Below, piece by piece: positions 29,039 through 62,884 of a stretch of 64,000 nt of DNA. Made by a program: the position numbers and the translations under genes. The notes beneath the pieces were generated by a model. That model was not told where the DNA came from and did no database searches. It was given only the letters and a program-made list of their open reading frames with translations. Location: NCBI RefSeq assembly GCF_964355755.1, contig NC_092678.1, forward strand, positions 9,456,922 through 9,520,921, in the 5' to 3' direction. Within the stretch, counting starts at the first letter, position 1. The number at the start of each line of letters is the position of its first letter. This DNA is from Antedon mediterranea (lineage: Eukaryota > Echinodermata > Crinoidea > Comatulida > Antedonidae).

Positions 29039-29043
29039 CCTCA

Positions 29044-29060
29044 GAGCGCACATGCAAAAA
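29044..29060 (+). repeat. Left terminal inverted repeat of the island
   Basis: Reads GAGCGCACATGCAAAAA immediately after satellite. It matches the reverse complement of the right end (GAGCGCACAATGCAAC) over GAGCGCACA/TGCAA with one single-base gap. A further GAGCGCACG lies inside at about 29932. Confidence 0.6.
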
Positions 29061-30830
29061 TGCACATCGGCCACCTACAGTTTTCAGTGAGAAACATGCA
29101 CATTTGATGATAATCTAGGGGGACTTTCCACAGTAAGACATAGGCACAGGTGCATGTTTGCTCTCCGCGAGACTGTCACTATGAGAATTGCACATATGCT
29201 GATTTACATATAATTATTACTCTTTCTCTACCTATTCAATAAAAAGTCTGTAAAATATCGTTTTTCTGACAGATTATTTAAGTCTCTAATTAACATTCAT
29301 GTCTCTAATGATTTACACGTTATCTTCCTTGTTTTTTATGAAAAATATCGTTTTGGGGAAAAAATTGAGTAATGTTCTAAGAACGATAGGTCGTCATATT
29401 TTTTATTTCACATTCACCAACATCGTCCTTTAAACATTTACTTTACATTGGAAACATATAACGTTTATATTTTTCCTATGTAAAAAAACACCAAAAGATC
29501 GTTTTTCCAGAGTTTCAACCCGATTTGACATCGGGAAAATGGTTTCCGCGGCGATTTTTATGTGTGTACTTAAAGGTGCACATATGCTGATTTTACCAAA
29601 AACACGTTATTTTACACAAAAATTCATCGTTTTGTAAAAATTTTGAGTTTCATACACAATACATTTATATACTCTCTTTTTTTAATGAAGAAAACTAAAA
29701 AAAATATCGTGTCTTTTTTGAAAAAAATGTAAAAAACGCGTAATTTCTCAGACTCGAATGCACTTTTGATGATTTTTGAATTTTTTCATGACTTATAACT
29801 TGGTATGTATTTGATTAAATTGTATGAAGTATGCTTTTCTCTACTCACTTTTCAACAAAGAAAATATTCTCTTCGGTCAAAATCGATAATTTATCGTTTT
29901 TCGGCTATAATTAATTACCTTTTATGTAAAGAGCGCACGTCTAAATTGAGGTCGCCCTTTCACTGGAGGCTCGTTCGTTATTATATTTTTTAAATAGTTT
30001 TATAACTGTAGTTTGGTTATTTTAATAAAGTAGATTTAATTAATAACTATGCTGATTTTTATTTATTTTTAGGAGTTGTTTGATTAAAATTCGACAATTT
30101 TATGTTGCCTTAATCGAATTTGTTAAAAATTAAACTAGTAAATAAATAAAATTAGCCGTTAGGGTTATGTCAACCCAATGTTTGTGAATGCTAAATTCCG
30201 TAATTTCTTCAAAATTACTACTTTACTTTATATGAAGCAATGCTTTGATTATATTTCTATAACATATCAAAGGGATTTAATTGAAACTGTACAAAAAAGT
30301 GACAATTTATGCGATTTTCTATACCATACAAAAAAATTTGGAACGCGAAATATCCTTTTTGTAACATACAGAACGAAATTGATATTTGTTTGCGGTTCAA
30401 CACACATTGAGGTTATCGCGTCGGTCCGCAGACGTCACGCTATATTGGCAATTAGGTTTAGCGTAATTTCGCTATCGTAAACAGATATTTTTTTCTTATT
30501 TTGCTTCGATTTTATTTTAATTTGGCTGTTACACTTATTCTTTCCTTTTATTGGCGTCAGACACTGTGCATTTGTGAACCAAGGGAGATCAATTTAGTGA
30601 CTTGGGAATGAGTAAATAGTGAATTATTGAGCATTATTCTGCGGACTTCAAATTCAAAAGTGGAACCCGGAGGTTCAGCGTGGATCAATTATCATAATAT
30701 AAACAAACGGGACCAAACAAACATGTAGGATGGCTTTTTTCGGTAAACGATTAAACAAATGACTAGACTATAATATGTAGTACTTTTTATTGTCTTATAA
30801 TAAACAAGGGAGAGGTAGGGATCATAGCTA
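29061..30830. other. AT-rich left subterminal region with repeated TGCAC/TGCTGAT motifs, no gene
   Basis: No convincing gene. Repeated short motifs are visible: TTGCACATATGCTGATTT near 29189, GTGCACATATGCTGATTT near 29576, ATGCACATTTGATGAT near 29096, ATGCACTTTTGATGAT near 29758 and GAGCGCACGT near 29932. Similar motifs occur near the right end of the island in both orientations. Open frames at 29805-29993 and 30178-30480 have no recognisable domain and no splice context, so I do not call them. Runs such as AAAATATCGTTTTT recur between 29250 and 29720. Confidence 0.55.
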
Positions 30831-31060
30831 TGTCTACGCTAGGCCGAAGTTTAAGCCAGGCTAGTTAGAGGGCCTCCAGTCGTATTGTAGTACTGTAGTA
30901 GTAGGCCTAGCCTATAGTTATATAGTTAATTGAAGTAGGTAGGCCTAGATAAAGTAGTCTAGGCCTAGTTTGAATGTTCAAGTACTTTAGTAATACTATC
31001 AAAGTATTCACAGCATTTATATTCACAGGCTATCTAGACTAGTTGCTAGCTAGGCGAAAA
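30830..31060. repeat. AGGCCTAG-rich tract, left copy
   Basis: Contains many TAGGCCTAG / CTAGGCCT words mixed with TAGTAGTAG and CTAGCTAG. The same kind of sequence is much denser at 61970-62480 near the other end of the island. It looks like a degenerate short-motif repeat. No gene. Confidence 0.6.
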
Positions 31061-32299
31061 TAACATTATTATTGTTATACTGCCCTTAATAACATGGAGT
31101 AATAATAAGGATAAGGTCTTGTTGGATGAGGCCATCGATCAAGTTTACATTCCGTACAAGTTGTTCTGTTTTTCTGTTGTAAATTAGTATTTTCTATCAA
31201 TCATCAACATTTGGTGTTGCGGCTATCGGGACATCAACCTCATTGGCTAATAAACAGCTCAATAAACAGCTCAGTGAATTTCGGCCACTGATATGTCTGT
31301 TGCCGCATCCCTACTTACCAACAAAAAACACTCTTATAGACAATCGTCAATAAAAACAATTTTCAGAAAAAAATTTACAAATTAGGTCAGCCGAAACCAA
31401 ATCAAATTACTAGAAAAAACTAAAAAATATTCATTTGATGCCAGGTAAACTGTGCCGATAGAAATGGTCCCGATAGAAATGGTCATGGTGTACCCTAATG
31501 TAAAGAACATACTGTAAAGAAAATAATAAATCTTCTGAAACACCATTTTAAAAGCATTACCTTCGATTTCATAAAAGGAAGACACTGTCGTATCTACCAT
31601 AAATATCATTTGAGAGACAAAAAAAATTCAAGAGTGAAACAAAACACAATACAATATTTAAAATTGTATTGATTACATCACACAGAGAGTGTCAATGTTC
31701 CATTACATGAAATGCTTAAATTTGACTGGGAATTATGCAATGAACAATAAATATTTATTTAAATAAGAAATAATAATTAATTTGATTTGAATTTATTAGG
31801 AAAATCATAAAATATACATACAAAGTAATAACATAATGAGGAAACTGGACAATTGACCAATGAAGCTAGGAGGTTTTGAATACCGGCAGACTAAAAACTG
31901 TCCATTTTAGAGGATTATCAAATGATCAATGTATTAAATAAATAAAAATATTAAATAATATTAATATAAAATCCTTTTTTTTAATATGACGAGACATGTT
32001 TATCAAAAATATTAGAATTCGTGGAAGGAAATATTTGATTCATATTAAAATGAATTATAGTGGAATTACTCTTGAAATATAAAATACTCATGACAAGAAT
32101 ATAGAAATCACAATTTAATGTACACATTTCATTGCAAAAGTTTCCCCTCTGCTTTTTTGTAAGGGCTTGGGACCTTCAAATACAAAGTGCAATGAATGAT
32201 TTAATGTAAATTATAATGTAACTATATAAACTTATTGTAATAATATAAAAATTACAAAATAATTCACTACATTAACCATTGCTCTTTGGATTTGGCAGC
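31061..32299. other. AT-rich non-coding stretch, nothing recognised
   Basis: About 1.2 kb of AT-rich sequence. The minus-strand frame at 31382-31609 (75 codons) is compositionally simple and has no matching splice sites or domain, so I treat it as chance. I see no RNA gene, TIR pair or repeat array here. Confidence 0.5.
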
Positions 32300-32420
32300 A
32301 TTAAAAACTTTTTTTTTATTATTATTTTTATTAACTTTATTGCACATTCAGAAAACCATTAGATATGGTGGCCCAATGGCCAAATTGCATAAAATATAAA
32401 ATATTTTGTAAAAAGTGAAA
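32300..32420 (-). mobile_element. 3' end of a retroposed element (poly-A-type tail)
   Basis: On the minus strand this reads CAATTTGGCCATTGGGCC, later GAATGTGCAATAAAGTTA, and then an A/T-rich tail corresponding to the TTTTTTTTATTATTATT run near 32311. An AATAAAG signal followed closely by an A-rich tail is typical of a LINE or LINE-mobilised 3' end. Its 5' limit is unclear. It may also serve as the polyadenylation region of the broken gene just upstream on the same strand. Confidence 0.4.
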
Positions 32421-33062
32421 ATAAAATAACAGAACAAAACAAAAAATAGAAGATATATATATATATGAAACAGTATAAAAACTCTATCCATGGCTACAAA
32501 AATCATTTGGAATCATTCTTGTTGCTGTTTTTTTTTCCACTCTTGACGATGGTGACGGGTGGCAACCAATAGCCAATTTTCATGCTTCATCAGATGTTGC
32601 AGCACAATACCAATTTCCATAGTACTGAGTGTGGTTCTTATTTAACCTTGGTTGCTTACACTTTGAGCACACAATCACAGACATTCTTGATTTGTACATT
32701 TTGATCGGTTTCCAATGTTTTTAGCCACTCGTTTTCTGTACAAGAGGGTAGTTCTAGGAATGCGAGTACTACTAGCCGCAGGGACTGATGGTGGTGGGTT
32801 TGCTATCTCGCCTGGAACTGGGATCGACAGTCTGTTTCCTAGAGTTGCTCGGCCGGAAGTGTTTTTTGGTTGGACAAATGTGAGAGATGGAGCGCTTGCA
32901 GGATCGTTTAGCACCGCTGGATTGGTTAAAGGTTCAAGTAGGGTATTATCAGAGACAAGTTTGGGTATTGTTGCTGAGATGCCAGATTCCAAAACTTGCT
33001 GCTCTTGCTTCTTTGATGTTCTGTTGTACCTGTAATAACATCAATAACAAGTTAAAACTCAC

Positions 33063-33311
33063 CGCTGGATGAGTGTCGTATGATTTATCTCCATCAGCTG
33101 AAGCTTACCAAACAACATCAGGTGTCCATTTGATAGCACTTTCCGACGAATGTTTTTGTAGCCTTTGCCGATTAGCGGCCAGCGCTGGAAATGTTTCCCT
33201 CCGATATATACGGTAGACGGATACTCTTCACATAGTTTTGTAATAAGGCACTCCATATATCGATTGCAGTCCGGCCATTGGGCTGGTCCGGTGTTCTGAC
33301 CTAAGAAGCAT
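33063..33311 (-). CDS. Exon of the broken left gene (middle)
   Basis: 249 nt encoding about 83 residues, from QCFLGQNTGPAQW to LFGKLQLMEINHTTLIQ. It has several Cys, Trp and His residues and no low-complexity sequence, so it looks like a folded domain. The donor CAGCG|GTGAGTT leaves two bases that join exactly with the G of the next exon to make Arg before YNRTSKK. Confidence 0.6.
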
Positions 33312-33352
33312 CTGTTAACCTACAAAGTGAAAAACGCAGGAAACTGCCTTAC

Positions 33353-33591
33353 TGTCGAGTGCTTTCAACACCAGGTATTACAGCAGTCGTTTTACTTTTC
33401 TTGAACCTGCCTTTTGTGAGGTAATCGTGATGCCGTGCTTTGCGCTTAACGGTTTTGTCATACGCATCCAGGTTGTTCCACAACTTTGTGACATGTTCAG
33501 CATGACTTTGACTTATGACTTCACTGTCTTCCTTAAACTGCATAAGGTAGCAGCCTGGAATGCTGTCTAGTCCAGTGGAATCCTCAAGTTC
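33353..33591 (-). CDS. Exon of the broken left gene (first clear exon)
   Basis: 239 nt, entered in phase 0 after acceptor AAAATTTAG and left with two bases over at CGACA|GTAAGG. It encodes about 79 residues rich in charged residues (HAEHVTKLWNNLDAYDKTV, then KRKARHHDYL). It joins in frame to 33063-33311 only if the acceptor GTTAACAG (33312-33313) is used. That use gives an uninterrupted frame, which supports both exons. Confidence 0.6.
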
Positions 33592-34460: not shown

Positions 34461-34535
34461 CTGAATACAGTAAATGCAACCAGTTACAATAGTTGTCATC
34501 ATTAATGACTTCAACACCAACCCACATAGATGAAA
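34461..34535 (-). CDS. Possible upstream exon of the same broken gene
   Basis: A 75 nt block bounded by acceptor TACTTTCAG and donor TTCAG|GTAATTC. One frame is open and protein-like (SSMWVGVEVINDDNYCNWL, then HLLYS). It leaves one base over, which does not match the phase-0 entry of 33353-33591, so an exon would be missing between them or this is a chance exon. Confidence 0.3.
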
Positions 34536-36399: not shown

Positions 36400-36580
36400 T
36401 GACGTAAAAGTACTACTTCTCCCTACCATCCACAAACCGAGGAATTAGTGGAAAGCTTTAATGGCACCCTTAAGTGTATGGTTTGTTCAGGATGATCCCC
36501 GGGAATGGAATAAATTGCTTCCGTACCTATTATTTGCTTATAGGGAGATACCGCAGGAGTCTACTGGGTTCTCCCCACAT
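36400..36580 (+). pseudogene. Ty3/gypsy integrase fragment
   Basis: From about 36415 the plus strand encodes SPYHPQTEELVESFNGTLK, the end of a Ty3/gypsy integrase core with the SPYHPQT...VE.FN signature. After a one-base frame change near 36488 it continues WNKLLPYLLFAYREIPQES and then TGFSPH. Another shift lies just before 36412. The fragment is broken and has no LTR in view. It stops where a minus-strand LINE relic begins. Confidence 0.85.
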
Positions 36581-37620: not shown

Positions 37621-37639
37621 GTAACTGAAAATTCGCATG

Positions 37640-49600: not shown

Positions 49601-52600
49601 CACATCAGGATTTGAACCCGAGACCTTCGACAAGAGTGCCGATGCTCTACCAGCTGAGCTATGATAGCATTCTATAAAAGAAATAGATTTTAGTGATTAG
49701 CATGGATTAACACATTCTATAAATTATTAAACAAAAAACATGCATGCAGTAATCTGGTGGATGATGTTAATATGAAAGTGTATGCCACATCAGGATTTGA
49801 ATCCGAGTGATTAGCATAGATTAAATTAAATAAAATAAACACACAAACACATTCTATAAACTACTAAACAAAAAAACAACATGCATGCAGTTATCTGGTG
49901 GATGACGTTAGATATGAAAGTGTATGCCACATCAGGATTTGAATCTGAAAAATTAGCATAGATTAAATTAAAATAAAATAAAAACACAAACACATTCTAT
50001 AAACTACTAAACAAATAAACATGCATAGTTATCTGGTGGATGATATTAAAAGTGTATGCCACATCAGGATTTGAATCTGAGTGATTAGCATTAAATTAAA
50101 ATAAATAAAAACACAAACACATTCTATAAACTACTAAACAAATAAACATGCATGCAGTTATCTGGTAGACGATATTAGATATGAAAGTGTATGCCACATC
50201 AGGATTTGAACCCAAGACCCCCGACAAGAGTGCCGATGCTCTACCAGCTGAACTATGATAGTATTCTATAAAAGAAATAGATTTTAGTGATTTGCATGGA
50301 TTAACACATTCTATAAACTACTATTAAACAAAATAACATGCAGTTATCTGGTGGATGATGTTAATATGAAAGTGTGGTTGATTTAAGCATAGATTAAATC
50401 AAATTTAAATAAAACAAACACACTCTATAAACTACTAAACAAAATAAAAGATGCATGCAGTTATCTGGTAGATGATGTTAATATGAAAGTGTATGCCACA
50501 TCAGGATTTGAACCTGAGACTTTCGACAATAGTGCCGATGCTCTACCAGCTGAGCTATGATAGTATTCTATAAAAGAAATAGATTTTAGTGATTAGCATG
50601 GATTAACACATCCTATAAACCACTAAAACAAAATATGAAAAATTAAATACACAGTTATTGAGTGGATGATGTATGACACATCAGGATTTGAACTAGATGT
50701 AAATGTTCAGAAATAGGGTTATTTATTTATTATAAAATTATGTGTGAATATTTTTGCCTTTAAAATAGTTTACTTTTCCCATTCTCCTAGTTTAATTTAA
50801 TAAAATTAAAATTGCCAATCATCCAATGCCTGAAATAAAAGATAACATACTACATTTTTATATATCAATAGTAAAAGTAAAAGGATAGCCGGCCAGACAA
50901 CCATAATAATATTGTGCAAGAATGCACCCAGATAGATTTAGGGTACTTGGAAATCAATTTAACTACTACTGTACTTAGTTTAGTAAAAGGATTTTGATCA
51001 TTTATATAGTGACCTTGTCCTGGTAAATACAGGTGAACCTTAGAATAATATCATAATCAACATTTTACCTATACCTAATTACCTTTACTAACACAATGAA
51101 AAAATAAGCTAGGATTAAGGTTAGTTTTAGTTATTTCTCCTAGTTTCTCCTAGTCTTTACCTAATAACATACAATATGATAAATCTTATGATTATGAATA
51201 CATTTTATGGATAAAGAAATAATATATAAAAAAACATACCAACTATGCTTTTAATTGTTTTCTCAGATTTTCTGAGATAATGGGATTGTTCGTCCGCCGA
51301 AACTAGATCACCTTAAAAGAAAATTAAAACATATTATTATTATTATTTCAATTTAAATAATATGACTTTCAAACATTTGATGAAAAGAAAAACTTTAATT
51401 CAGTAGATGTTACCTTCAATTTCTTCATGCTTTTTGGCCTTTTCTTCAGAAATGCGTTTTCTGAGAGCCTTGCTCAGGCCTTTGCATGCATCTTTGCACT
51501 TGTATATTTCGGCAAGCGAAACAGATTTAGATTCGTATATTGAAATGTATTCCAATATTTTCACAAAGGAGCACAGGTAGTGTCTTAACGTGGAGCCAGC
51601 AAGCTTCAATTGTAAATGGCTAACAGCACTAAACAATTATTTTTAAAAAAATGAAAAGAAGAGTACAATACACAAAAATCAAATATTCAAATATGTAATA
51701 TCTTCATTATAGTAATTAGGATCGAGTGATTCATGGTAACTTCACATGGTTTCAAATTCAACTTAACATTTATTTGTTCCTTCAAGAAAATTAAGGTAGC
51801 AGGCTTAATAACACAATAATACATTAGACTCACAATCTATAGCTGACATTTAAGAAAACTTTTATTTTAATGCTAAATGAAATTTAAATTGTTTGGCTTC
51901 TTCCTTTTTCTATTAATATAATTGTAATAAAAAAATGTTACGTCTTTATTATCTTTGGAGAATATCCCTTCTCCCCTGCTTCACTCCAAATTCCCTCTAT
52001 CTCCTTTATGACCTGTGCTGCATGCTTTGCCGGTATTTTTAAAGTTTCTAACATGTAGGCCTTGAACCGGCTCATTGTTGTAGATGGCTCTATAGAAGTT
52101 AAAAAGGCTTTAATGACATTAAAAATAAGTCCATTCTTGGAAAACAAAGTTCAGGATCCGAAAGTTGACCCATGACATAATTATTATTATATTACAATTG
52201 TTATTATTACAGTAATTTTATTTATTAGTGTCTGGGATTGGTTATCTAAATTAATATTAACTATTTGGGATAAAGAGAACATTGTATTTGACCTAAAAGT
52301 AGTAGTTAGTAGTAGAAATTAGGTACTTATAATTCTCCAGCATAGATAAAATGAATAAGAATTGTTTTTGTCAATAAAAGGTACACATTTATTTTTAAAT
52401 TGAAACTATTAATTATCTATCAAAAAATGAAACTTTATAATAATTTTATAAATAAAAGGTTACCTGCAAATTTACAGACTTTTTGTTGTCTGAACTTAAT
52501 ATATTCAGGACTGCCAACCTAAAAAAAATGTAAATGTATAACTTACCTATATAACTTTGATTTGCATCACAATTAAGCTAAGAAATTAGCATGGATTAAG

Positions 52601-55600
52601 ACATACAGCGAAAATTAAAGTATTTAAAAACAATTACAAAGTAAATAAAAAATAAACATGCATGCAGTTATCTGATGGATGATGTTAATATGAAAGTGTA
52701 TGCCACATCAGGATTTGAATCTGAGTGATTAGCATAGATTAAATTAAAATAAAATAAACACACAAACTACTAAACAAAAAAACATGCATGCAGTTATCTG
52801 GTGGATGATGTTAGATATGAAAGAGACTTTCGACAAGAGTGCCGGTGCTCTACCAGCTGAGCTATGATAGCATTCTATAAAAGAAATAGATTTTAGTGAA
52901 TAGCATGGATTAACACATTCTATAAACTACTAAACAAAAAAAACGTGCATGCAGTTATCTGGTGGATGATGTTAATATAAAAGTGTATGCCACATCAGGA
53001 TTTGAATCTGAAAAATTAGCATAGATCAAATTAAAATAAAAAAAAACTCAAACACATTCTATAAACTACTAAACAAAAAACATGCATGCAGTTATCTGGT
53101 GGATGATGTTAATATGAAAGTGTATGCCACATCAGGATTTGAATCTTAGTGATTAGCATAGATTAAATTAAAATAAAATAAACACACAAACACATTCTAT
53201 AAACTACTAAATAAATAAACATGCATGCAGTTATCTGGTGGATGATGTTAGATATGAAAGTGTATGCCACATCAGGATTTGAATCTGAAAAATTAGCATA
53301 GATTAAATTTAAAAAAAACAAACACACAAACACATTCTATAAACTACTAAACAAATAAACATTCATGCAGTTATCTGGTGGATGATGTTAATATGAAAGT
53401 GTATGCCACATCAGGATTTGAATCTGAGTGATTAGCATAGATTAAATTAAAATAAAACAAACATACAAACACATTCTATAAACTACTAAACAAATAAACA
53501 TGCATGCAGTTATCTGGTGGATGATGTTAATATGAAAGTGTATGCCACATCAGGATTTGAATCTGAGTGATTAGCATAGATTAAATTAAAATAAAACAAA
53601 CATACAAACACATTCTATAAACTACTAAACAAATAAACATTCATGCAGTTATCTGGTGGATGATGTTAATATGAAAGTGTATGCCACATCAGGATTTGAA
53701 TCTGAGTGATTAGCATAGATTAAATTAAAATAAAACAAACACACAAACACATTCTATAAACTACTAAATAAATAAACATGCATGCAGTTATCTGGTGGAT
53801 GATGTTAATATGAAAGTGTATGCCACATCAGGATTTGAACCCGAGACCTTCGACAAGAGTGTCGATGCTCTACCAGCTGAGCTATGATAGCATTCTATAA
53901 AAGAAATAGATTTTAGTGATTAGCATGGATTAACACATTCTATAAACTACTAAACAAATAAACATGCATGCAGTTATCTGGTAGATGATGTTAATATGAA
54001 AGTGTATGCCACATCAGGATTTGAATCTGAGTGATTAGCATAGATTAAATTAAAGTAAAATAAACACACAAACACATTCTATAAACTACTAAACAAAAAC
54101 AAAAAACATGCATGCAGTTATCTGGTGGATGATGTTAATATGAAAGTGTATGCCACATCAGGATTTGAACCCGAGACCTTAGACAAGAGTGCCGATGCTC
54201 TACCAGCTGAGCTATGATAGCATTCTATAAAAGAAATAGATTTTAGTGATTAGCATGGATTAACACATTCTATAAACTATTAAACAAAAAACATTCATGC
54301 AGTTATCTGGTGGATGATGTTAATATGAAGGTGTATGCCACATCAGGATTTGAATCCGAGTGATTAGCATAGATTAAATTAAAGTAAAATAAACACACAA
54401 ACACATTCTAAACTACTAAACAAAAAAAAAACATGCATGCAGTTATCTGGTGGATGATGTTAATATGAAAGTGTATGTATGCCACATCAGGATTTGAACC
54501 TGAGACTTTCAACAAGAGTGCCGATGCTCTACCAGCTGAGCTATGATAGTATTCTATAAAAGAAATAGATTTTAGTGATTAGCATGGATTAACACATTCT
54601 ATAAACCACTAAAACAAAATATTAAAAATTAAATACACAGTTATTGAGTGGATGATGTATGACACATCAGGATTTGAACTAGATGTAAATGTTCAGAAAT
54701 AGGGTTATTTATTTATTATAAAATTATGTGTGAATATTTTTGCCTTTAAAATAGTTTACTTTTCCCATTCTCCTAGTTTAATTTAATAAAATTAAAATTG
54801 CCAATCATCCAATGCCTGAAATAAAAGATAACATACTACATTTTTATATATCAATAGTAAAAGTAAAAGGATAGCCAGCCAGACAACCATAATAATATTG
54901 TGCAAGAATGCACCCAGATAGATTAAGGGTACTTGGAAATCAATTAACTACTACTGTACTTAGTTTAGTAAAAGGATTTTGATCATTTACATAGTGACCT
55001 TGTCCTGGTAAATACAGGTGAACCTTAGAACAATATCATAATCAACATTTTACCTATACCTAATTACCTTTACTAACACAATGACTAAATAAGCTAGGAT
55101 TAAGGTTAGTTTTAGTTATTTCTCCTAGTTTCTCCTAGTCTTTACCTAATAACATACAATATGATAAATCTTATGATTATCAATACATTTAATGGATAAA
55201 GAAATAATATAAAAAACATACCAACTATGCTTTTAATTGTTTTCTCTGATTTTCTGAGATAATGGGATTGTTCGTCCGCCGAAACTAGATCACCTTAAAA
55301 GAAAATTAAAACATATTATTATTATTATTTCAATTTAAATAATATGACTTTCAAACATTTGATGAAAAGAAAAACTTTAATTCAGTAGATGTTACCTTCA
55401 ATTTCTTCGTGCTTTTTGGCCTTCTCTTCAGAAATGCGTTTTCTGAGAGCTTTGCTCAGGCCTTTGCATGCATCTTTGCACTTGTATATTTCGGCAAGCG
55501 AAACAGATTTAGATTCGTATATTGAAATGTAGTCCAATATTTTCACAAAGGAGCTCAGGTAGTGTCTTAACGTGGAGCCAGCAAGCTTCAATTGTAAATG

Positions 55601-58600
55601 GCTAACAGCACTAAACAATTATTTTTTAAAAAATGAAAAGAAGAGTACAATACACAAAAATCAAATATTAAAATATGTAATGTCTTCATTATAGTAATTA
55701 GGATCGAGTGATTCATGGTAACTTCACATGGTTTAAAATTCAATTCAAATTCAACTTAACATTTATTTCTTCCTTCAAGAAAATGAAGGTAGCAGGCAAT
55801 AATACATTATACTCACAATCTATAGCTGACATTTAAAAAAACTTTTTATTTTAATGCTAAATGAAATTTAAATTGTTTGGCTTCTTCCTTTTTCTATTAA
55901 TATAATTGTAATAAAAAAATGTTACGTCTTTATTATCTTTGGAGAATATCCCTTCTCCCCTGCTTCACTCCAAATTCCCTCTATCTCCTTTATGACCTGT
56001 GCTGCATGCTTTGCCGGTATTTTTAAAGTTTCTAACATGTAGGCCTTGAACCGGCTCATTGTTGTAGATGGCTCTATAGAAGTTAAAAAGACTTTAATGA
56101 CATTAAAAATAAGTCCATTCTTGGAAAACAAAGTTCAGGATCCGAAAGTTGACCCATGACATAATTATTATTATATTACAATTGTTATTACAGTAATTTT
56201 ATTTATTAGTGTCTGGGATTGGTTATCTAAATTAATATTAATTATTTAGGATAAAGAGAACTTTGTATTTGACCTAAATGTAGTAGTTAGTAGTAGAAAT
56301 TAGGTAATTATAATTCTCCAGCATAGATAAAATGAATTGTTTTTGTCAATAAAAGGTACACATTTATTTTTAAATTGAAACTATTAATTATCTATCAAAA
56401 AATGAAACTTTATAATAATTTTATAAATAAAAGGTTACCTGCAAATTTACAGACTTTTTGTTGTCTGAACTTAATATATTCAGGACTGCCAACCAAAAAA
56501 AAAATGTAAATGTATAACTTACCTATATAACTTTGATTTGCATCACAATTAAGCTAAGAAATTAGCATGGATTAAGACATACAGCGAAAATTAAAGTATT
56601 TAAAAACAATTACAAAGTAAATAAAAAATAAACATGCATGCAGTAATCTGGTGGATGATGTTAATATGAAAGTGTATGCCACATCAGGAATTGAATCTGA
56701 GTGATTACCATAGATTAAATTAAAATAAAATAAACACACAAACACATTCTATAAACTACTAAACAAAAAAACATGCATGCAGTTATCTGGTGGATGATGT
56801 TAATATGACAGTTTATGCCACATCAGGATTCGAACCCGAGACCTTCAACAAGAGTGCCGATGCTCTACCAGCTGAGCTATGATAGCATTCTATAAAAGAA
56901 ATAGATTTTAGTGATTAGCATGGATTAACATATTCTATAAACTACTAAACAAAAAAACGTGCATGCAGTTATCTGGTGGATGATGTTAATATGAAGGTGT
57001 ATGACACATCAGGATTTGAATCTGAAAAATTAGCATAGATTAAACTAAAATAAAACAAAACACAAACACATTCTATAAACTACTAAACAAATAAACATGC
57101 ATGCAGTTATCTGGTGGATGATGTTAATATGAAAGTGTATGCCACATCAGGATTTGAACCCGAGATCTTCGACAAGAGTGCCGATGCTCTACCAGCTGAG
57201 CTATGATAGCATTCTATAAAAGAAATAGATTTTAGTGATTAGCATAGATTAACACATTCTATAAACTACTAAACAAAAAAAACATGCATGCAGTTATCTG
57301 GTGGATGATGTTAATATGAAAGTGTATGCCACATCAGGATTTGAATCTGAGTGATTAGCATAGATTAAATTAACAAAAATAAACACACAAACACATTCTA
57401 TAAACTACTAAACAAATAAACATGCATGCAGTTATCTGGTGGATGATGTTAATATGAAAGTGTATGCCACATCAGGATTTTAATCCGAGTGATTAGCATA
57501 GATTAAATTAAAGTAAAATAAACACACAAACACATTCTATAAACTACTAAACAAAAAAACATGCATGCAGTTATCTGGTAGATGATGTTAATATGAAAGT
57601 GTATGCCACATCAGGATTTGAATCTGAAAAATTAGCATAGATTAAATTAAAATAAAACAAACACACAAACACATTCTATAAACTACTAAACAAATAAACA
57701 TGCATGCAGTTATCTGGTGGATGATGTTAATATGAAAGTGTATGCCACATCAGGATTTGAACCCGAGACCTTCGACAAGAGTGCCGATGCTCTACCAGCT
57801 GAGCTATGATAGCATTCTATAAAAGAAATAGATTTTAGTGATTAGCATGGATTAACACATTCTATAAACTACTAAACAAAAAAAACATGCATGCAGTTAT
57901 CTGGTGGATGATGTGAGATATGAAAGTGTATGCCACGTCCGAATTTGAATCTGAAAAATTAGTATAGATTAAATTAAAAAAAACAAAAACTGAAACACAT
58001 TCTATAAACTACTAAACAAATAAACATGCATGCAGTTATCTGGTGGATGATGTTAATATGAAAGTGTATGCCACATCAGGATTTGAATCTGAAAAATTAG
58101 CATAGATTAAATTTAAAAAAAACAAACACACAAACACATTCTATAAACTACTAAACAAATAAACATGCATGCAGTTATCTGGTGGATGATGTTAATATGA
58201 AAGTGTATGCCACATCAGGATTTGAATCTGAGTGATTAGCATAGATTAAATTAAAATAAAACAAACATACAAACACATTCTATAAACTACTAAACAAATA
58301 AACATTCATGCAGTTATCTGGTGGATGATGTTAATATGAAAGTGTATGCCACATCAGGATTTGAATCTGAGTGATTAGCATAGATTAAATTAAAATAAAA
58401 CAAACACACAAACACATTCTATAAACTACTAAATAAATAAACATGCATGCAGTTATCTGGTGGATGATGTTAATATGAAAGTGTATGCCACATCAGGATT
58501 TGAATCTGAAAAATTAGCATAGATTAAATAAAAAAAAAACAAACATACAAACACATTCTATAAACTACTAAACAAATAAACATGCATGCAGTTATCTGGT

Positions 58601-61600
58601 GGATGATGTTAATATGAAAGTGTATGCCACATCCGAATTTGAATGTGGTGGATTTAAGCATAGATTAAAATAAAACAAACACACATTCTATTAAATACTA
58701 ACAAAATAATAAATAATTTTAAAGTGTACTGCATGTACACCTCAAAATTTGGACCTGAGACAGAGTGGTGATACTCTACGAACTCTAAAAAATAGATTTT
58801 TGTAATTAACATACATATTTAAAAAAAAAATAAACAATAAACAAACAATTATAATAGTTGGAAATACATTACTACTCTACACACTATTTCTTGGTCTGAA
58901 ATAAAACAAAAAATTTAATTTAACATTTGATTGAACATATATCTGCTAAAGTTGAAAGAATTTTAACTTACAGGGAATTTATGCTTCCTTTGCAGATGCA
59001 TGTCATACCTTGCTAGGTTTTTAGCCAAACATCCAGGCACACTGCAGGAATGTCTGGCCTTTTTTTTCCCCCTTTATCATTAGTATCTAGAAAACTTTAA
59101 ATGATACACTCATGATAACTAGATAAAACATACAAAACTGTTTATCATTTTTCAATAATCCAATCACAGTATTCAATTCACCCAAAAATAGAAACCATTG
59201 AGAATGTTTGGTTTTCAATACATTACAAGTGCAGTTTTCGGTTTCCAGTATTGGTAGAGTTAACTAGTAAAATATTCTATAAAAAAGAAACTGCAAACAA
59301 AACTAAGATAAATAAAAATATGTAATTTATTATATTTAGCTGAAGAAACTCCATGTTATACTTAACAATATGTTATTTATAATTTAGCTGGTAACCACAT
59401 GAAAAAAATTGTTCATAATGAATGAAGTACTCACCTTTTTCTAGCATCAGCAACCATGTTTTTAATTATTTCTCTATTTATTATTTTGTGGGCCTTTTCC
59501 AGATGGCTGGCAAGGTACCTGCTTATGCGGCCACACAGAATGCATGTTAACAATTTTCTGTTCTGTAGGCAATAATAAACCATGACTATTTTGAATGAAT
59601 GCTTTAAGGTCTATTCATTATCAACAACCAATATCAAAATATAAAATTTTATATTATTTGTATTCAATAAAAAAAACTATTTTAATGAAGTTAAATAATT
59701 TAAGACTTCAGTAACCACAGATGTAAACTACAACTATCTACGGTAATTAGATTTTTGATGCTAATCTACAGGGAAAATTTAATCTAGCTAAATTGATAAT
59801 AAAAAAAATGAGGAAACAAAGTTTAAGTTAATATTTTACTTCAAATTAAGTACAAAAGTATATTCAATATGCTACTTTCCCTTACAGCTTTCTTCTTTTC
59901 TATGTCCTTCCTAATAAAAACAAAATACAACACATAGGTATTAAAGGAAAAGTACTGATAAAGTAATATAATATTTCATGTTAACTGTATATAACTACCG
60001 TATTTTTATTTTTACATTATTTAATAACATAGCATTTAGGGCCTAAGTGATCCATTGGCTGTTTATTTTAATTACAGTATTAGTCAAAAAATATTATATT
60101 TACTTTTTTCCCTTCTTTTCAAAATCACTATACCTAAACAAATTAAAAAAATATTGTTATGGTTATATAGTAATAACTAAAGTTAACACAAATAAGGATG
60201 CTCAATAGTATATGTTTTGCTACATAATAAGCTCAATCTAGAAAAATAATACTGGTAAATTTTAGAAAATGATAAACTATGTTCATTCTAGAATGTCTAA
60301 ATACAAAACAGTTCATAACTTACACTCAACTACCTCCTCTTCTTTTTCCTCGTCTTCTTTCTCGCTTTCTTCTTCTTCATCTTCTTCTTCTTCCTCCTCC
60401 TCCTCCTCCTCCTCCATGTTTTCCTCTTCCTCCATTTCTTCTTCCTCGTCTTCTTTCTCATTTTCTTCCTCCTCCATGTTTTCCTCTTCCTTATTTTCTT
60501 TCTTCTCAAATTCTCCATCCTCACTTCTATTAATAGTTCACAAAGTACACACAAATATTGTAGGTGTATTAAAATAAAAGTCGAAAAAAAAAACTATTTA
60601 TAGACCTACTATGAAATAATATAGAAATTATATAAGCATGTATGTTTGCACAAATTAGAATAGATGTTTGGCTTTAGGTAAATAAACAACAGTATATATC
60701 CTATTCTTCGTTAACAAAATAATTTCAAGTATTTATTTTTTAACAAAAATAAGTTTGAATTGTATGGTGTGAATAATAAAGTATAAATAATTACGTCAAA
60801 ATAAAACAAAATTGTAAATTTATGGCAAAAATGGTTTATCACAGATAACAAATCACCCGACTTAACTAACTGGTTAATTATTGAACCGATTAATATTAAA
60901 ATTTGCAAGGTAGGCTCAAATTAAACCCTAGCCATCAGCGCAAGATCAGTAATCTGGATGTCGTGGTTCATACAAACACAACAGATTTATTCTCAAAATG
61001 GATACTTACACTTTGTCAGACATGTAGTCTTCTTTGCTACTAATAATAAAATTAAACAAATATTGTTAGTTAATTTTTACTTTGAAAAACAAATACAGGC
61101 TCTAATTATTAACCTCTTTTATTTCATTAAAGCAAATAATTAAAAAAAATCATTTCAAACCCTTACTTTTTTATCATTATGAATAAAAATGAATAAAGGT
61201 TTGTTTATAACATGTCATTTTTCAAGAAGGCTGTACCAACGAAGATACAATATTGGAATTAAAAATAAAATACTTACCATCTAAATTTGTCATGGATGTA
61301 AAAATGGAGTAATTTATCAATAAATTTCTAACTATACTTACCAGTCTTCATGATTAAAAAAATCGCTTTCAGTTAATTCATCAGGTTGCTATAAAAAAAT
61401 AATGTTATTATTATTGTATATTTGTTACAAATAATTAAACTAAAGTTATCCGTAACTATTATTACATAGTGCAGTATTATTATTACTTTTCTAAGGCTTA
61501 ACCTTACTTTTATATACTGTACTTGAAAAAGTTGAATTCCATGACTAAGATAAGCTCTAGATAAATGGATTATTACATTTGTGATTCAGCCAAGGAGCAT

Positions 61601-61866
61601 TATCAGTACGGGACATGTCAGCTCATTTAGGAGATTAGATTAGTAATGACGTACATTTTATAAAAAGTCTGCTTTAGCGATAACATTTTATAAACTTAAA
61701 ATACCAACAACTGACAACAACCATTTGGTCCAGCATAAAATCTGGATGTTTCAGTATACAAAGCGAGTTGAATCGCTCCACCAAACCTGGAATAAATCAT
61801 CCTGGATTCAGGTAAATTTAGGTAAATGAATTGTTTACTTACGGGTGAATTACAAAAACGGTCCAT
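43587..61866 (-). CDS. Zinc-finger tyrosine recombinase gene, about 23 exons, ~725 residues
   Basis: I joined exons by GT/AG sites and reading phase from ATG at 61866 to TAA at 43587. Order: acidic region (residues ~33-100), two C2H2-like fingers (~125-143, ~164-185), helical core-binding region (~189-374), tyrosine-recombinase catalytic domain (~375-570), and a tail with a compact helical domain (~620-725). Catalytic positions in the family pattern: Arg406 (GCRTG), Lys449/451 (SKHKTS), Arg523 (TNLRK, with Thr where His is usual), His548 and Tyr556/557 (HTLSTQEAYY). Such enzymes cut and rejoin DNA through a tyrosine; in animals the closest mobile relatives are Crypton-type elements. The frame stays open across all junctions, so the gene looks intact. 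Exon 15's acceptor and exon 8's purine-rich acceptor are weakest. The five-exon cassette is duplicated; this model uses one copy. It could be a host gene instead of a mobile one. Confidence 0.75.
43722..43808 (-). CDS. Recombinase exon 22
   Basis: 87 nt, phase 0 both sides: AREVYNKNPVLHYYEFQQLY then DKMRRMYPK. Acceptor TTTTTTGTAG and donor CCAAAG|GTAGGT. Confidence 0.7.
43893..44015 (-). CDS. Recombinase exon 21, C-terminal domain
   Basis: 123 nt encoding SVSHPLSKHGPKSKFDNQDV then MDAVFKLFGRQIEEGHVPKRT. With exon 22 it forms a compact helical unit (D..V...FK.....G..P.R.A.EVY..NP.L) resembling the small Myb/SANT-like tail that I recall following recombinase domains in related animal proteins; that likeness is from memory. 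Acceptor TATAACTAG and donor AGAACA|GTATGT. Confidence 0.65.
44160..44830 (-). repeat. tRNA-derived repeat array 1 (intron between exons 20 and 21)
   Basis: Three to four units sharing GATGATGTTAATATGAAAG and CACATCAGGATTTGAA. tRNA-like parts lie at 44346-44409 and 44526-44591 on the minus strand. In the first, GTCTCGGGTTCAAATCC (B box) follows AGCTCAGCTGGTAGAGC-like A-box sequence at a shortened distance. The remaining units keep only the B-box half. Confidence 0.75.
45410..45448 (-). CDS. Recombinase exon 20
   Basis: 39 nt, EISQAHANEAPSS, acceptor TTCACCAG, donor ATCATCT|GTAAGTA, phase 0 both sides. Confidence 0.6.
45604..45645 (-). CDS. Recombinase exon 19
   Basis: 42 nt, VAFSSVEDTIDEML, acceptor CTTTTCTAG, donor ATGCTG|GTAAGA, phase 0 both sides. 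A short, symmetric, skippable exon. Confidence 0.6.
45831..45857 (-). CDS. Recombinase exon 18
   Basis: 27 nt, NINETADVQ, acceptor CTTTCAG, donor TCCAG|GTAAGG, phase 0 both sides. Part of an acidic linker after the catalytic domain. Confidence 0.6.
46044..46205 (-). CDS. Recombinase exon 17, His and nucleophile tyrosine
   Basis: 162 nt, phase 0 in and out: SWGHCDERERVVVADHMAHT, LSTQEAYYKA, TQSRETAVRAHNLIAANRQL. HMAHTLSTQEAYY matches the HxxxxxTxxxY end of tyrosine recombinases; the Tyr nine residues after His548 (Tyr557) sits at the usual nucleophile spacing. Acceptor TTTCATCAG and donor AGTGGG|GTAAGA. Confidence 0.8.
46350..46515. mobile_element. Dispersed repeat with (AAT)n end
   Basis: An (AAT)n microsatellite at 46352-46372 leads into CAGTATTTATATAGCGCCTA and later AGGTGCTTTACATAGGACC. 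The AT-rich head followed by TATATAGCGCC...GTGCTTTACAT is a common dispersed-repeat pattern in marine invertebrate genomes. It lies in the intron between exons 16 and 17. Family assignment is from memory and uncertain. Confidence 0.45.
46580..46828 (-). CDS. Recombinase exon 16, catalytic lysine and box II
   Basis: 249 nt, phase 0 in and out. It begins VSKHKTSCKFGAANLVITEE (beta-hairpin lysine region), continues LAELIEIYIKYCRPI, and ends PTNLRKAAATL. Arg in TNLRK is the box II arginine; Thr stands where many family members have His. Acceptor TTTTGCAG and donor ACTCTA|GTATGTG. Confidence 0.8.
46923..46964 (-). CDS. Recombinase exon 15 (5' limit uncertain)
   Basis: Encodes LQKYDEVDEVSYRT up to donor AGAACA|GTAAGAG. 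The downstream frame requires phase-0 entry, which fits acceptors at ATCAACAG or CTACAG six bases on. The sequence further upstream also reads well (GYHYTNQQ) but no acceptor of the right phase was found for it. This is the least certain join in the catalytic domain. Confidence 0.45.
47083..47255 (-). CDS. Recombinase exon 14, catalytic box I
   Basis: 173 nt encoding ERIKNGENMENPSKRFLRIH, then IMLLLAMNNGCRTGVLANAT and LEQYYKRTAATNGMSVMK. Arg in NGCRTGVL is the first catalytic arginine by position after a hydrophobic helix (N..R.GVL...T). Acceptor CTTTCAG and donor ATGAAA|GTGAGT. Confidence 0.8.
47570..50680 (-). repeat. tRNA-derived repeat array 2, long and short units alternating
   Basis: About 17 units in the intron between exons 13 and 14. 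Long units carry a tRNA-like part at 47590-47661, 48057-48128, 48382-48457, 49130-49201, 49598-49669, 50192-50263 and 50494-50565. Short units replace everything after GATTTGAA with TCTGAGTGATTAGCATAG or TCTGAAAAATTAGCATAG, losing the A box. All units share ATGCATGCAGTTATCTGG and ACATTCTATAAACTACTAAA. On the minus strand the tRNA-like part has A box TAGCTCAGCTGGTAGAGC and B box GGTTCAAATCC, a D stem GCTC/GAGC, and in some copies a perfect T stem (TCAGG/CCTGA). Confidence 0.85.
51240..52577 (-). CDS. Core-binding exon cassette, copy B (five exons)
   Basis: Exons 52547-52577, 52464-52510, 51942-52135, 51414-51628 and 51240-51311, each the counterpart of copy A at an offset of 3976-3984 bp, with identical splice-site positions. 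It leaves one base over and joins in frame to the catalytic exon at 47255, giving SIV-ERIKNGEN. Copy A would join equally well. Entering copy B after copy A would put the frame one base out and hit TAA in its first exon, so a functional mRNA should contain only one copy. In the second exon the acceptor TTGGCAG is used; the nearer TTTTAG in this copy would give an early stop. Confidence 0.7.
52640..54680 (-). repeat. tRNA-derived repeat array 3 (between exon cassettes B and A)
   Basis: About 12 units of the same repeat. Complete tRNA-like parts at 53821-53892, 54151-54222 and 54480-54551; 52822-52872 keeps the A box but has lost the B box. The other units are the short type. This array is part of the 3.98 kb segment that was duplicated with the exon cassette. 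Confidence 0.85.
55222..56553 (-). CDS. Core-binding exon cassette, copy A (five exons)
   Basis: Exons 56523-56553 (LNCDANQSYI), 56439-56485 (VLNILSSDNKKSVNLQ), 55926-56119 (NGLIFNVIKVFLTSIEPSTT onward), 55396-55610 (AVSHLQLKLAGSTLRHYLSS onward) and 55222-55293 (GDLVSADEQSHYLRKSEKT). The set enters in phase 0 and leaves with one base over. The helical pattern STLRHYL.SFVKIL.YI is what is expected for the SAM-like core-binding half of a tyrosine recombinase. It differs from copy B at about 7 of 559 coding bases. Three changes alter residues: V for A, S for C, D for E. The copy is fully open. Confidence 0.7.
56630..58800 (-). repeat. tRNA-derived repeat array 4 (upstream of cassette A)
   Basis: About 13 units of the same repeat, with complete tRNA-like parts at 56816-56887, 57140-57211 and 57743-57814. 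The last unit near 58740-58800 is heavily decayed (GATACTCTACGAACTC). The unit number and order differ from array 3, so it has changed since, or is older than, the cassette duplication. Confidence 0.85.
58972..59053 (-). CDS. Recombinase exon 8, second C2H2-like finger
   Basis: 82 nt encoding RHSCSVPGCLAKNLARYDMH then LQRKHKFP. Ligands C164, C169, H180 and H185, spacing C-x4-C-x10-H-x4-H. The donor TTCCCT|GTAAGT is strong. The acceptor GGCCAG follows a purine run, which is poor, but it is the only one that keeps the frame. Confidence 0.65.
59435..59562 (-). CDS. Recombinase exon 7, first C2H2-like finger
   Basis: 128 nt encoding NRKLLTCILCGRISRYLASH, then LEKAH and a basic helix (KIINREIIKNMVADARK). 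Zinc ligands C125, C128, H138 and H143, spacing C-x2-C-x9-H-x4-H. The acceptor CCTACAG (not the later CAG) is set by the reading frame. Expected to bind DNA or another protein. Confidence 0.7.
59886..59910 (-). CDS. Recombinase exon 6
   Basis: 25 nt encoding KDIEKKKA with acceptor TTTTATTAG and donor AAGCT|GTAAGG. Together with exon 5 it makes a basic linker between the acidic region and the first finger. Confidence 0.55.
60104..60133 (-). CDS. Recombinase exon 5
   Basis: 30 nt encoding YSDFEKKGK, joined in frame to the acidic exon and to exon 6. Acceptor TTTGTTTAG and donor AAAAAA|GTAAAT. Lysine-rich. Confidence 0.55.
60326..60526 (-). CDS. Recombinase exon 4, glutamate-rich
   Basis: About 67 residues starting SEDGEFEKKENKEEENMEE, dominated by Glu with Lys, Asp and two ENMEE repeats. 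It arose from a GAA/GAG-rich purine tract that could expand and contract. I place the donor at GTTGA|GTGTAAG, not two bases later, because only this phase lets exons 5 and 6 read through without a stop. Acidic stretches like this are common in chromatin and transposase proteins; no specific function can be assigned. Confidence 0.65.
61010..61036 (-). CDS. Recombinase exon 3
   Basis: 27 nt encoding (C)KEDYMSDK. Acceptor TTATTAGTAG and donor AAAGT|GTAAGT. The two leftover bases make Val with the A that starts the acidic exon. Confidence 0.6.
61342..61388 (-). CDS. Recombinase exon 2
   Basis: 47 nt encoding QPDELTESDFFNHED. Acceptor TTTTATAG and donor GACTG|GTAAGT. It leaves two bases that complete Cys with the next exon. 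Confidence 0.65.
61843..61866 (-). CDS. Recombinase exon 1 (start codon)
   Basis: Encodes MDRFCNSP, 24 nt from ATG to donor CACCC|GTAAGT. This start is chosen because the next exon follows in phase 0 and keeps the frame open to the fingers. No good start or exon was found further upstream before the AGGCCTAG tract. Confidence 0.65.
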
Positions 61867-61969
61867 TTTGAAATAATCTGTGGAACAAATGATACATTTT
61901 TTGAAGAAAAAAAAAGCACTGAAGCCAGGGGTAGCATATACTTGCTAACGAGAAGGGCCTACTGTGGTC

Positions 61970-62480
61970 CAACTTTTAATACCCTCTCCTTTATGCTAGG
62001 CCTAGGGGCCTACTCTAACCTAGCTAGTGTGGTATGATTGATAGGCCTAGCTAGAGACTAGGCCTATACATGACATAGGCCTACACCTAACCTCCAATCT
62101 AGGCTACAGACAGATTCAGCCAACTAGGCTAGGCCTAAACTATTATTAACCTAGCCTAGGCCTAGCTAGGTAGACCAGGCTAGTAGGCCCTATAGCCTGG
62201 CCCAAGGAGGTAGGTTTAGTTCCTACCCTATCTATAATAATACTTTAATACGCAGGCCTAGCTAGGTAGGCTATGCCTCCTAGCTAGGCTAGGCCTAGCT
62301 AAGCTAGCTAGGACCTAGCCTAGCTAGGAGGGCTTATTAATTATTGTTAGGCCTCTAGCTAGCTAGCTAGGCCTAGCCCAGCTAGGCCTAGGCCTAGCCC
62401 TCTAGGGCCTAGGCTAGTAGGCCTAAGCCTAACTAGGGGCCTAGGCTAGGCCTAGAGGCCTAGGCCTAGGCCACAATCAT
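61970..62480. repeat. AGGCCTAG-rich tract, right copy, upstream of the recombinase start
   Basis: Dense, irregular TAGGCCTAGGCC, CTAGCTAGG and GCCTAGGCT words over about 500 bp, ending near GGCCTAGGCCTAGGCCAC. AGGCCT and CCTAGG are palindromes, so the tract can fold on itself. It lies 100-600 bp upstream of the first codon and may include or border the promoter; no TATA box or clear initiator is visible. A weaker copy lies at 30830-31060. Confidence 0.7.
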
Positions 62481-62866
62481 TTTATGGTGGTATTTTTTTA
62501 TTTTGGCCATTTAAAACAAAAAATCTCTGTACTTTAGTACAGGGATTAAGGCACTTGGTTATGCAATAAAAATTTATGTTAGGATAATAAAAGGTAATAA
62601 AAGTACCTAGCCTATAGCCTTACCTTTCTACAAACAGTCTGTTTTAACGATCAGATCAATAGTTACAGATGAATTTAAAAATTTAAAAAAACACCGCGTC
62701 CGGATGGGTTTATTTATAAAATTAGTGAAAGAGGCTGAATGCCAGTGATTACCTAACTGCTGAAAATTCTTCAATCGACGCGAGTGCATCTGAAATCAGC
62801 ATAATTGCACCCAAAAAACAGGTTGCATCGCGATATGCTGATCGGCCGCCGCTGATTAGCATTGAA
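62481..62866. other. Right subterminal region with TGCTGAT motifs
   Basis: AT-rich then GC-richer sequence. GAAATCAGCATAATTGCACC (near 62791) is the inverse of GGTGCACATATGCTGATTTT in the left end. ATATGCTGATCGG (near 62833) and GCTGATTAGCATTG (near 62851) are further copies. Such clustered motifs at both ends are what transposase- or recombinase-binding sites look like. No gene. Confidence 0.5.
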
Positions 62867-62884
62867 AAGTTGCATTGTGCGCTC
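62867..62884 (-). repeat. Right terminal inverted repeat of the island
   Basis: The plus strand reads AAGTTGCATTGTGCGCTC and then satellite. Its reverse complement begins GAGCGCACAATGCAAC, matching the left terminus. Satellite resumes directly after it with CCTCGCTGATC. Confidence 0.6.

Follow-up and report, generated by a model that had tools for sequence, protein, structure and literature searches.

We found that the satellite array in the window, a 64,000-nucleotide stretch of the Antedon mediterranea genome (contig NC_092678.1), is interrupted by an island that entered the higher-order repeat at one place, in a single event. A single insertion of one large element of ~33.8 kb is well supported, and the island is probably a copy of a giant transposon that encodes the tyrosine recombinase (YR) responsible for its movement. 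Our best reading of the element is a giant YR-mobilised transposon that is Starship-like in its working and is neither a Starship nor a Crypton by Pfam tests. The element and its junctions are as follows.

29036..29039, no strand: left direct repeat CCTC (7 bp if taken as CTCCCTC)
29040..62884, no strand: inserted element, 33,845 bp when CCTC is taken as the direct repeat; the joined flanks restore the satellite order
62885..62888, no strand: right direct repeat CCTC, from the sequence at the junction

By joining 150 + 150 bp of flanking satellite in 63 cut-point combinations and aligning the joins to the unbroken array, we obtained scores of 264–289 of 300, versus 212–262 of 300 for 60 random joins; intact 300-mers of the array had a median of 294 (range of 228–300, n = 40). 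The satellite order is thus broken at the left junction and resumes at the next monomer, as the sequence-only reading had proposed. Its further claim, that one giant element was inserted and that this is not a chance juxtaposition, is well supported by the flank joins together with the variant shared by the junctions and the inverted arms described below. Satellites are error-prone in assemblies, and an unrelated contig joined into the array could in principle produce such an island; this is extremely unlikely, as the satellite resumes exactly where it was interrupted, and both matched arms and a direct repeat are found at the junctions.

The direct repeat at the junctions is at least 4 bp long and reaches 7 bp (CTCCCTC) when the final CTC of the right end is included. 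Among the ten array copies of the insertion site that scored above the threshold of our script (bases 1–28700), all carry TCTC (TCTCGCTG in five, TCTCGCTT in five), whereas both junctions read CCTC. CCCTC had been singled out as unusual for the array and present on both flanks. Elsewhere in the window satellite it occurs 13 times and CTCCCTC 12 times, versus 808 occurrences of CTCTCTCGCTGATC, so that its rarity holds and its uniqueness does not; the 13 further copies rule it out as a junction-only sequence.

The ends of the element carry inverted arms and short inward-facing motifs.

29044..29057, plus strand: left inverted arm GAGCGCACATGCAA, from end-sequence comparison
29189..29205, plus strand: subterminal motif TGCACATATGCTGATTT, exact
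29577..29593, plus strand: subterminal motif TGCACATATGCTGATTT, exact
29759..29775, plus strand: subterminal motif, 3 mismatches
62793..62809, minus strand: right-end subterminal motif, inverted, 2 mismatches
62870..62884, minus strand: right inverted arm GAGCGCACAATGCAA, from end-sequence comparison

The left end has GAGCGCAC-ATGCAA from 29044 onward, and the right end has the reverse complement of this sequence, lengthened by one A, up to 62884, which gives arms of about 14 bp at both ends; GAGCGCAC has one further occurrence in the window, internal to the element at 29931. A match as good was reached by 3 of 50,000 random 16-base end pairs and by 17 of 20,000 random 40-mer pairs drawn from the island; the inverted sequence common to both ends that had been noted beforehand is upheld. 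The subterminal motif occurs four times at up to 3 mismatches, versus about 0.18 expected per island, a comparison in which two of the four occurrences themselves served to choose the motif; all four lie within 740 bp of an end and are oriented inward at each end. A blastn comparison of the outer 950 with the outer 700 bases gave 24.3 bits, within the range of random maxima (0 to 32.2, 40 pairs), so that the ends are alike only in the arms and the short motif. Among 25 listed of 35 inverted pairs of at least 20 bases none joins the two ends. The right end of the element had no match in phages, nor did the 20-mer of the left end in viral contigs. The arms and the direct repeat also led us to set aside a rolling-circle (Helitron) reading on the usual criteria for such elements.

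These end structures bear on whether the island is mobile at all. A segmental duplication or repair-mediated insertion could have landed in the satellite with a YR-derived gene by chance, and the multi-exon genes, long introns, LINE debris and satellites of the island do resemble ordinary genomic DNA. Such a non-mobile segment would not be expected to have inverted arms exactly at both breakpoints and inverted subterminal motifs, nor a direct repeat with a common variant and a probable YR gene first at one end, and we consider this origin quite improbable. The partial protein P0001 might be the same locus in another haplotype, and we did not count it as a second copy.

The first gene at the right end (gene 1) has a predicted ATG at 61866, 1.0 kb inside that end, and reads inward through about 20 predicted exons. 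In this predicted model exons 7–20 are phase-consistent, while exons 1–6 are not in frame with exon 7. Its parts, with motifs and residues by our own reading, are the following.

43722..61866, minus strand: gene 1, predicted exons with a provisional 3' end; probable tyrosine recombinase in captain position
60324..60526, minus strand: acidic exon (predicted)
59435..59562, minus strand: exon with putative Cys/His finger-like motif CILCGRISRYLASHLEKAHK
58972..59041, minus strand: exon with part of a putative second Cys/His finger-like motif
55222..56500, minus strand: tandem duplicate of exons 9–12 and their introns, about 97% identity
51240..52518, minus strand: exons 9–12, putative core-binding region
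47083..47255, minus strand: exon 13, putative first catalytic Arg region (CRTGVLANATLEQYY)
46580..46828, minus strand: exon 14, putative Lys hairpin and second Arg box (PTNLRKAAATL)
46044..46205, minus strand: exon 15, putative His and Tyr region (ADHMAHTLSTQEAYY)
43722..45857, minus strand: exons 16–20, C-terminal region

Exons 7–20 appear to encode a divergent tyrosine recombinase. By our reading the Arg, Lys, Arg, His and Tyr boxes follow one another in order, those of the second Arg, the His and the Tyr being in register in weak profile matches, and in our alignment a Thr stands where a His usually precedes the second Arg. Residues 16–177 of the 192-residue gene 1 domain matched the PHROG 216 integrase (E 0.0015), and gene 1 matched TIGR02225 XerD (E 0.0016; 17.9 bits versus a curated cut-off of 329.6), both weak matches that are far under the curated cut-off or have none. 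A four-sequence Xer-type profile built from solved entries scored gene 1 above 4,999 of 5,000 shuffles (one scored higher), with an alignment that includes the boxes of the second Arg, the His and the Tyr; hhalign gave a probability of 3.1%. A longer, 290-residue version of the protein had no PHROG integrase among its matches, and its best match was a helix-turn-helix DNA-binding family (E 0.0033). The AlphaFold model of exon 14 has low confidence (pLDDT 44.8), too low for a comparison with structure libraries, and gives no support for a YR fold.

Other searches with gene 1 returned no relatives. Pfam-A at E up to 10 listed no YR family for the spliced recombinase or its domain, and neither DUF3435 (PF11917) nor DUF3504, provided that these models were in the copy used and with the proviso that HMMER filters may drop very weak matches. 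The finger-like motifs had no Pfam match above cut-off. Among 5.8 billion proteins no homologue was found in 7,996 and 843 scored candidates, in a search limited to relatives that have exact 5-residue words in common with the query. The recombinase had no match in contigs of viruses or of prokaryote genomes, and only chance matches among the sequences of solved structures.

Besides gene 1, and leaving LINE debris aside, one other gene was recognised in the island.

32678..33591, minus strand: gene 2, three predicted exons, C-terminally truncated relative to P0002

Several relatives of gene 2 occur in the Antedon mediterranea genome and one in a cod, which points to a feather star as the probable host. 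The gene may code for an accessory DNA-binding protein or be cargo; the AlphaFold model of its relative P0002 is of low confidence (mean pLDDT 50), again too low to be compared with structure libraries, and lends no support. Gene 2 could also be the unrecognised DDE-type transposase of a large DNA transposon with a 4-bp target duplication, in which the recombinase-like gene would be a passenger. This reading draws on the relatives of gene 2 and on the fact that a direct repeat beside inverted terminal repeats is a DDE signature too, and a 4-bp target duplication fits some DDE families. However, Pfam found no DDE domain in gene 2 and its relatives or in the 34 of 71 listed ORFs that were scanned, all outside 38.0–43.4 kb, and four bases (CTCA) lie outside the arm at the left end and have no counterpart at the right, which a simple terminal inverted repeat leaves unexplained. 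We therefore regard a DDE transposon as unlikely. The left-only CTCA is instead accounted for by a recombination spacer.

The position of a probable YR gene first inside the right end suggests both the mechanism and the class of our preferred YR-mobilised transposon. When the ends of the element are joined, they form two inverted arms round an 8-bp spacer, as in a YR core site; passages of PMC3212892 give such sites arms of 11–13 bp and a spacer of 6–8 bp. In the mechanism that we propose, the first gene at the right end would supply a recombinase in which a finger-like region is combined with a YR catalytic domain, an assignment that is supported and unproven, and this protein would bind the inverted arms and the subterminal motifs. 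The element would be excised as a circle, with its ends joined as arm, 8-bp spacer and arm (TTGCATTGTGCGCTC, CCTCCTCA and GAGCGCACATGCAA). The spacer of the circle would then recombine with the partly matching satellite target TCTC, which would leave CCTC at both junctions.

Among known systems, the Starships of Pezizomycotina are a close counterpart in working. As described in parts of PMC12134995 and PMC11623301, they are tens of kb long or more, carry a YR captain first at one end and are flanked by short direct repeats, sometimes with inverted terminal repeats. The present element is like them in its giant size, in its probable YR gene first at one end (start 61866) and in its short flanking direct repeat, here CCTC at both junctions. 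It is unlike them in several respects: captains carry DUF3435, for which no match was listed for gene 1; the host is an animal and not a member of Pezizomycotina, by the relatives of gene 2 (Antedon mediterranea, a cod); gene 1 is divided into about 20 predicted exons and includes a finger-like region; and only one other gene is recognisable, LINE debris aside.

Elements of the DIRS, Ngaro, PAT and Crypton groups are the YR elements described from animals in parts of PMC4157794 and PMC3212892, and the island could be what is left, within the satellite, of a YR retroelement or Crypton that grew by nested insertions. DIRS, Ngaro and PAT carry a reverse transcriptase, whereas the sole such match in the ORFs scanned here is a fragment at 37108–37272 (RVT_1, E 2.5e-5, under its cut-off), close to a LINE-type endonuclease match (E 0.095), which we read as probable LINE debris. 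The repeats of these groups, direct or inverted, are split and have internal copies; here GAGCGCAC has an internal copy at 29931, and none of the 25 inverted pairs listed links the ends. Animal Cryptons (CryptonA, CryptonI) resemble the element, as we read it, in having a YR as the only transposition enzyme and in a circle model of movement. They reportedly carry neither terminal repeats nor a C-terminal domain, and DUF3504 is reported to derive from Crypton YRs; the present element differs in its giant size, its arms of about 14 bp and its C-terminal region, and DUF3504 is absent from its Pfam listing. The short direct repeats ascribed to fungal and stramenopile Cryptons in part of PMC3212892 have a likeness in CCTC, or up to CTCCCTC, here. 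Taken as a whole, a YR-retroelement or Crypton remnant is very improbable.

In Tn916-type integrative elements, a short coupling spacer lies between the element end and the target and a YR integrase gene lies beside one end. The element is like these bacterial elements in its proposed short spacer and in the probable YR gene adjoining one end, and unlike them in having introns in gene 1 and no recognised conjugation gene, the sole relation in sequence being the weak YR signal. Teratorn and Mavericks are likewise giant animal elements, and Teratorn has short terminal inverted repeats, but they move by DDE enzymes of piggyBac or retrovirus type, and they contain virus-related genes. Pfam detected no such virus-related or DDE genes in the 34 of 71 ORFs scanned, and in these ORFs and genes 1 and 2 no family B DNA polymerase, retrovirus-like integrase or capsid of the Maverick/Polinton type.

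Parts of PMC12134995 and PMC11623301 describe how one Starship recombinase moves tens to hundreds of kb, genes included, and implicate Starships in transfer between fungal species. In open-access PMC full text, preprints aside, we found no giant YR-moved element described from an animal. If confirmed by other copies, the island would represent a Starship-like YR vehicle in animals, where it would be unusual. We tentatively suggest, at somewhat short of even odds, that it belongs to a first-seen animal class of giant circle-forming YR transposons, an independent counterpart of Starships that has an attachment site of its own (14-bp arms, 8-bp spacer) and a partner gene from a family that fish also have. 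As the window supplies a predicted attachment site and also, within the array, an empty site, the mechanism is directly testable.

The island also contains nested debris, which shows that this copy of the element is not pristine; with its LINE debris and long internal satellites, the copy may be old and immobile. A candidate gypsy-type integrase fragment at ~36.40–36.60 kb had no Pfam support (ORF 36474–36695). The tandem repeats are as follows.

39445..43497, no strand: 82-bp tandem repeat, 49 copies, between genes 1 and 2
47701..50210, minus strand: SINE-like tandem units with tRNA heads, within a gene 1 intron
44264–44727, 52912–54618 and 56622–58679: further SINE-like tandem arrays

Between the two copies of the duplicated exon block of gene 1, the coding part differs by 6 substitutions and no gaps in 490 bases, and the non-coding part by 14 substitutions over 828 columns, of which 36 are gap columns, with no significant difference in substitution rates (Fisher p 0.50). 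As the block holds 490 coding bases, an mRNA carrying both copies would go out of frame.

The window consists of a pyrimidine-rich satellite of 19-, 23- and 42-bp units that runs to 29,039 and resumes at 62,885, with the island lying between these points. By joining 150-base segments from the two flanks at 63 cut-point combinations and aligning the joins to the remaining array, we found that the joined flanks score 264 to 289 of 300 against the unbroken array, compared with 212–262 for random satellite joins (n = 60) and 228–300 for intact 300-mers (n = 40, of which 31 score at least 286). The island therefore interrupted a single higher-order repeat at a single position, and the interruption and resumption of satellite order proposed in the sequence-only reading is borne out. 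The split site is TCTC in all 10 array copies (counted by script in bases 1–28,700, only those above a score threshold) versus CCTC at both junctions; the island is therefore flanked by a direct repeat, 4 bp or longer, that carries a private variant. That reading had also called CCCTC on both flanks unusual; it is indeed rare in the satellite but not unique, with 13 copies away from the junctions. The island is a single insertion with a flanking direct repeat.

The left-hand satellite is also broken by two smaller interruptions. Within satellite, 26735–27020 holds, by our own reading, the 3' end of a LINE-like element with terminal repeated ACTTGAT. At 5320–7387 a 186-bp repeat, in about ten copies, interrupts the satellite, and one of these copies is broken near 6260–6460 by a short insert starting AGTCGCGTGGACGCGACT.

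The left end of the island runs CCTC, then CTCA, then GAGCGCACATGCAA, and the right end terminates in the reverse complement of GAGCGCACAATGCAA. Of random sequence pairs drawn from the island, 17 of 20,000 40-mer pairs and 3 of 50,000 16-base end pairs equalled the similarity of these arms, and the earlier claim of inverted ends stands. A 17-base subterminal motif, TGCACATATGCTGATTT, was picked after two sightings at the left end and recurs as follows.

Matches to the subterminal motif TGCACATATGCTGATTT at up to 3 mismatches
29189 and 29577, left end, exact
29759, left end, 3 mismatches
62809, right end, opposite orientation, 2 mismatches

No further match at this threshold occurs in the window, and the chance expectation is ~0.18 per island (60 random sequences); as the motif was chosen from left copies, only the matches at 29759 and 62809 count as a test. 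The island ends thus carry arms and inverted subterminal motifs, and outside these a comparison of the two ends gave no similarity. A third GAGCGCAC lies at 29931–29938 on the left-arm strand, 0.9 kb inside the left end. It may represent an internal end or an older one.

Two predicted genes lie in the island.

43722–61866, minus strand: gene 1, starting near the right end
33591–32678, minus strand: gene 2, three exons

Gene 1 was modelled by a splice-site scan and inspection of the strand by eye. The resulting model has 20 exons bordered by AG and GT, and its predicted start codon (ATG) lies at 61866, 1.0 kb inside the right end. Exons 7 to 20 share one frame over 1,590 bases (530 codons, from summed exon lengths), in which the agreement of exon 8 is not independent because its acceptor was picked with frame in mind. 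Exons 1 to 6 are out of frame with exon 7, and stops appear in the joined translation beginning at exon 6; the N-terminal model, which includes a long acidic stretch, is therefore provisional. By our own reading, exons 7 and 8 hold two putative Cys/His finger-like motifs, the second incomplete if the exon 8 acceptor was chosen correctly. Exons 9 to 12 are duplicated in tandem with their introns (55222–56500 and 51240–52518, offset ~3.98 kb, ~97% identical), with 6 substitutions and no gaps in 490 coding bases and 14 substitutions and 36 gap columns in 828 non-coding columns; the coding and non-coding parts show no significant difference in substitution rate (p 0.50). The gap-free coding part nevertheless fits a gene that was still in use, although the frame would be lost if one mRNA took both copies.

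The domain encoded by exons 13–15 (192 residues) matches the integrase PHROG 216 over most of its length (E 0.0015) and XerD (NCBIfam TIGR02225; E 0.0016, with 17.9 bits where the cut-off is 329.6). On a Xer-type profile built from four sequences of solved entries, it outscores 4,999 of 5,000 shuffles, one shuffle being higher, and the second Arg, His and Tyr boxes align in register. We read the boxes of a tyrosine recombinase (YR) in order, namely Arg CRTGVLANAT, Lys hairpin VSKHKTS, second Arg PTNLRKAAATL and His box ADHMAHT, followed 8 and 9 residues later by the Tyr pair in EAYY; the usual His before the second Arg is Thr. Several results speak against this reading. A longer 290-residue version gave no PHROG integrase match (best a helix-turn-helix DNA-binding family, E 0.0033), hhalign run on the single sequence put the probability at 3.1%, and Pfam at E up to 10 listed no YR family (best CecR_C, E 0.16). 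Two protein searches found no homologues among 7,996 and 843 scored candidates, a sequence search of solved structures gave chance hits only, and the single-exon structure model was too poor for use. Overall, gene 1 is likely to encode a YR.

These data support a YR gene in first position at the right end. We infer that the element would have been excised as a circle: the joined ends read TTGCATTGTGCGCTC, then CCTCCTCA, then GAGCGCACATGCAA, with arms of ~14 bases either side of 8. In the excerpts of PMC3212892, YRs typically recognise two 11–13 bp inverted repeats 6–8 bp apart, and the movement proposed for Cryptons involves circles, with 4- or 6-bp direct repeats at the ends. CTCA outside the left arm would be part of the recombination spacer, which could explain its absence at the right end. 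A different enzyme that duplicates a 4-bp target is a possible alternative, though it accounts for the junctions less well.

The island resembles Starships in size, position of the captain (the YR gene placed first), direct repeats and the inverted repeats that some Starships have (excerpts of PMC12134995 and PMC11623301). However, Starship captains are defined by DUF3435 and their hosts are fungal, whereas no DUF3435 match is listed for gene 1; nor is one to the Crypton DUF3504, and animal Cryptons are reported to lack terminal repeats and a C-terminal domain (excerpts of PMC3212892). On these grounds, the element would work like a Starship but is filed neither as Starship nor as Crypton. No giant YR element from an animal is mentioned in the excerpts of two reviews of giant eukaryotic transposons (PMC6431247, PMC10175614).

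A search with gene 2 gave 5 hits among 943 candidates, and it is from these relatives that the host was named.

Protein relatives of gene 2 (identity, and share of the query covered)
P0001, Antedon mediterranea, 95% over 43%
P0002, Antedon mediterranea, 86% over 61%
P0003, Antedon mediterranea, 81% over 28%
P0004, ENA sequence, 62% over 30%
P0005, the cod Arctogadus glacialis, 40% over 65%

A Cys-rich tail, QYYGNWYC, closes P0002 and P0005; the window gene lacks it in frame, and it persists out of frame at 32702–32592. P0001 shares the truncated end, lacks one exon and differs at 4 of 181 residues besides the splice-junction residue; it may represent this locus on another haplotype, or else a second copy. 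The less similar P0002 and P0003 come from contigs of 31.9 and 40.9 Mb, so gene 2 is repeated in Antedon mediterranea. Pfam gave no match at cut-off for gene 2 (lowest E 0.09), and the structure model of P0002 was poor. The family to which gene 2 belongs, represented in the window at 32592–33591, is common to a crinoid and a cod; its Cys-rich tail, QYYGNWYC, is conserved, and none of its Pfam matches exceeds the cut-off.

Among 71 ORFs (at least 52 residues in 29.0–38.0 kb, at least 60 in 43.4–63.0 kb), 34 were scanned with Pfam and yielded nothing at cut-off besides LINE pieces, with no DDE transposase, DNA polymerase or capsid gene among the matches listed; among the other 37, several correspond to exons of the two genes and were scanned in spliced form. 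The LINE debris at ~37.7–36.5 kb matches RVT_1 (E 2.5e-5, 24.5 bits, below the 29.6 cut-off) and an endonuclease (E 0.095), the remainder being our own reading. Beside it, at 36400–36600 on the plus strand, we read a possible gypsy-type integrase fragment that has no Pfam support. Tandem repeats fill ~38.0–43.5 kb, and the introns of gene 1, within 44264–58679, contain tandem arrays of SINE-like units headed by tRNA-like sequence, for which Rfam gives 11 tRNA matches. The periods of these arrays include values near 137–139 and 325–329 bp. Because gene 2 is truncated and other insertions lie inside, this copy of the island is probably inactive as it stands.
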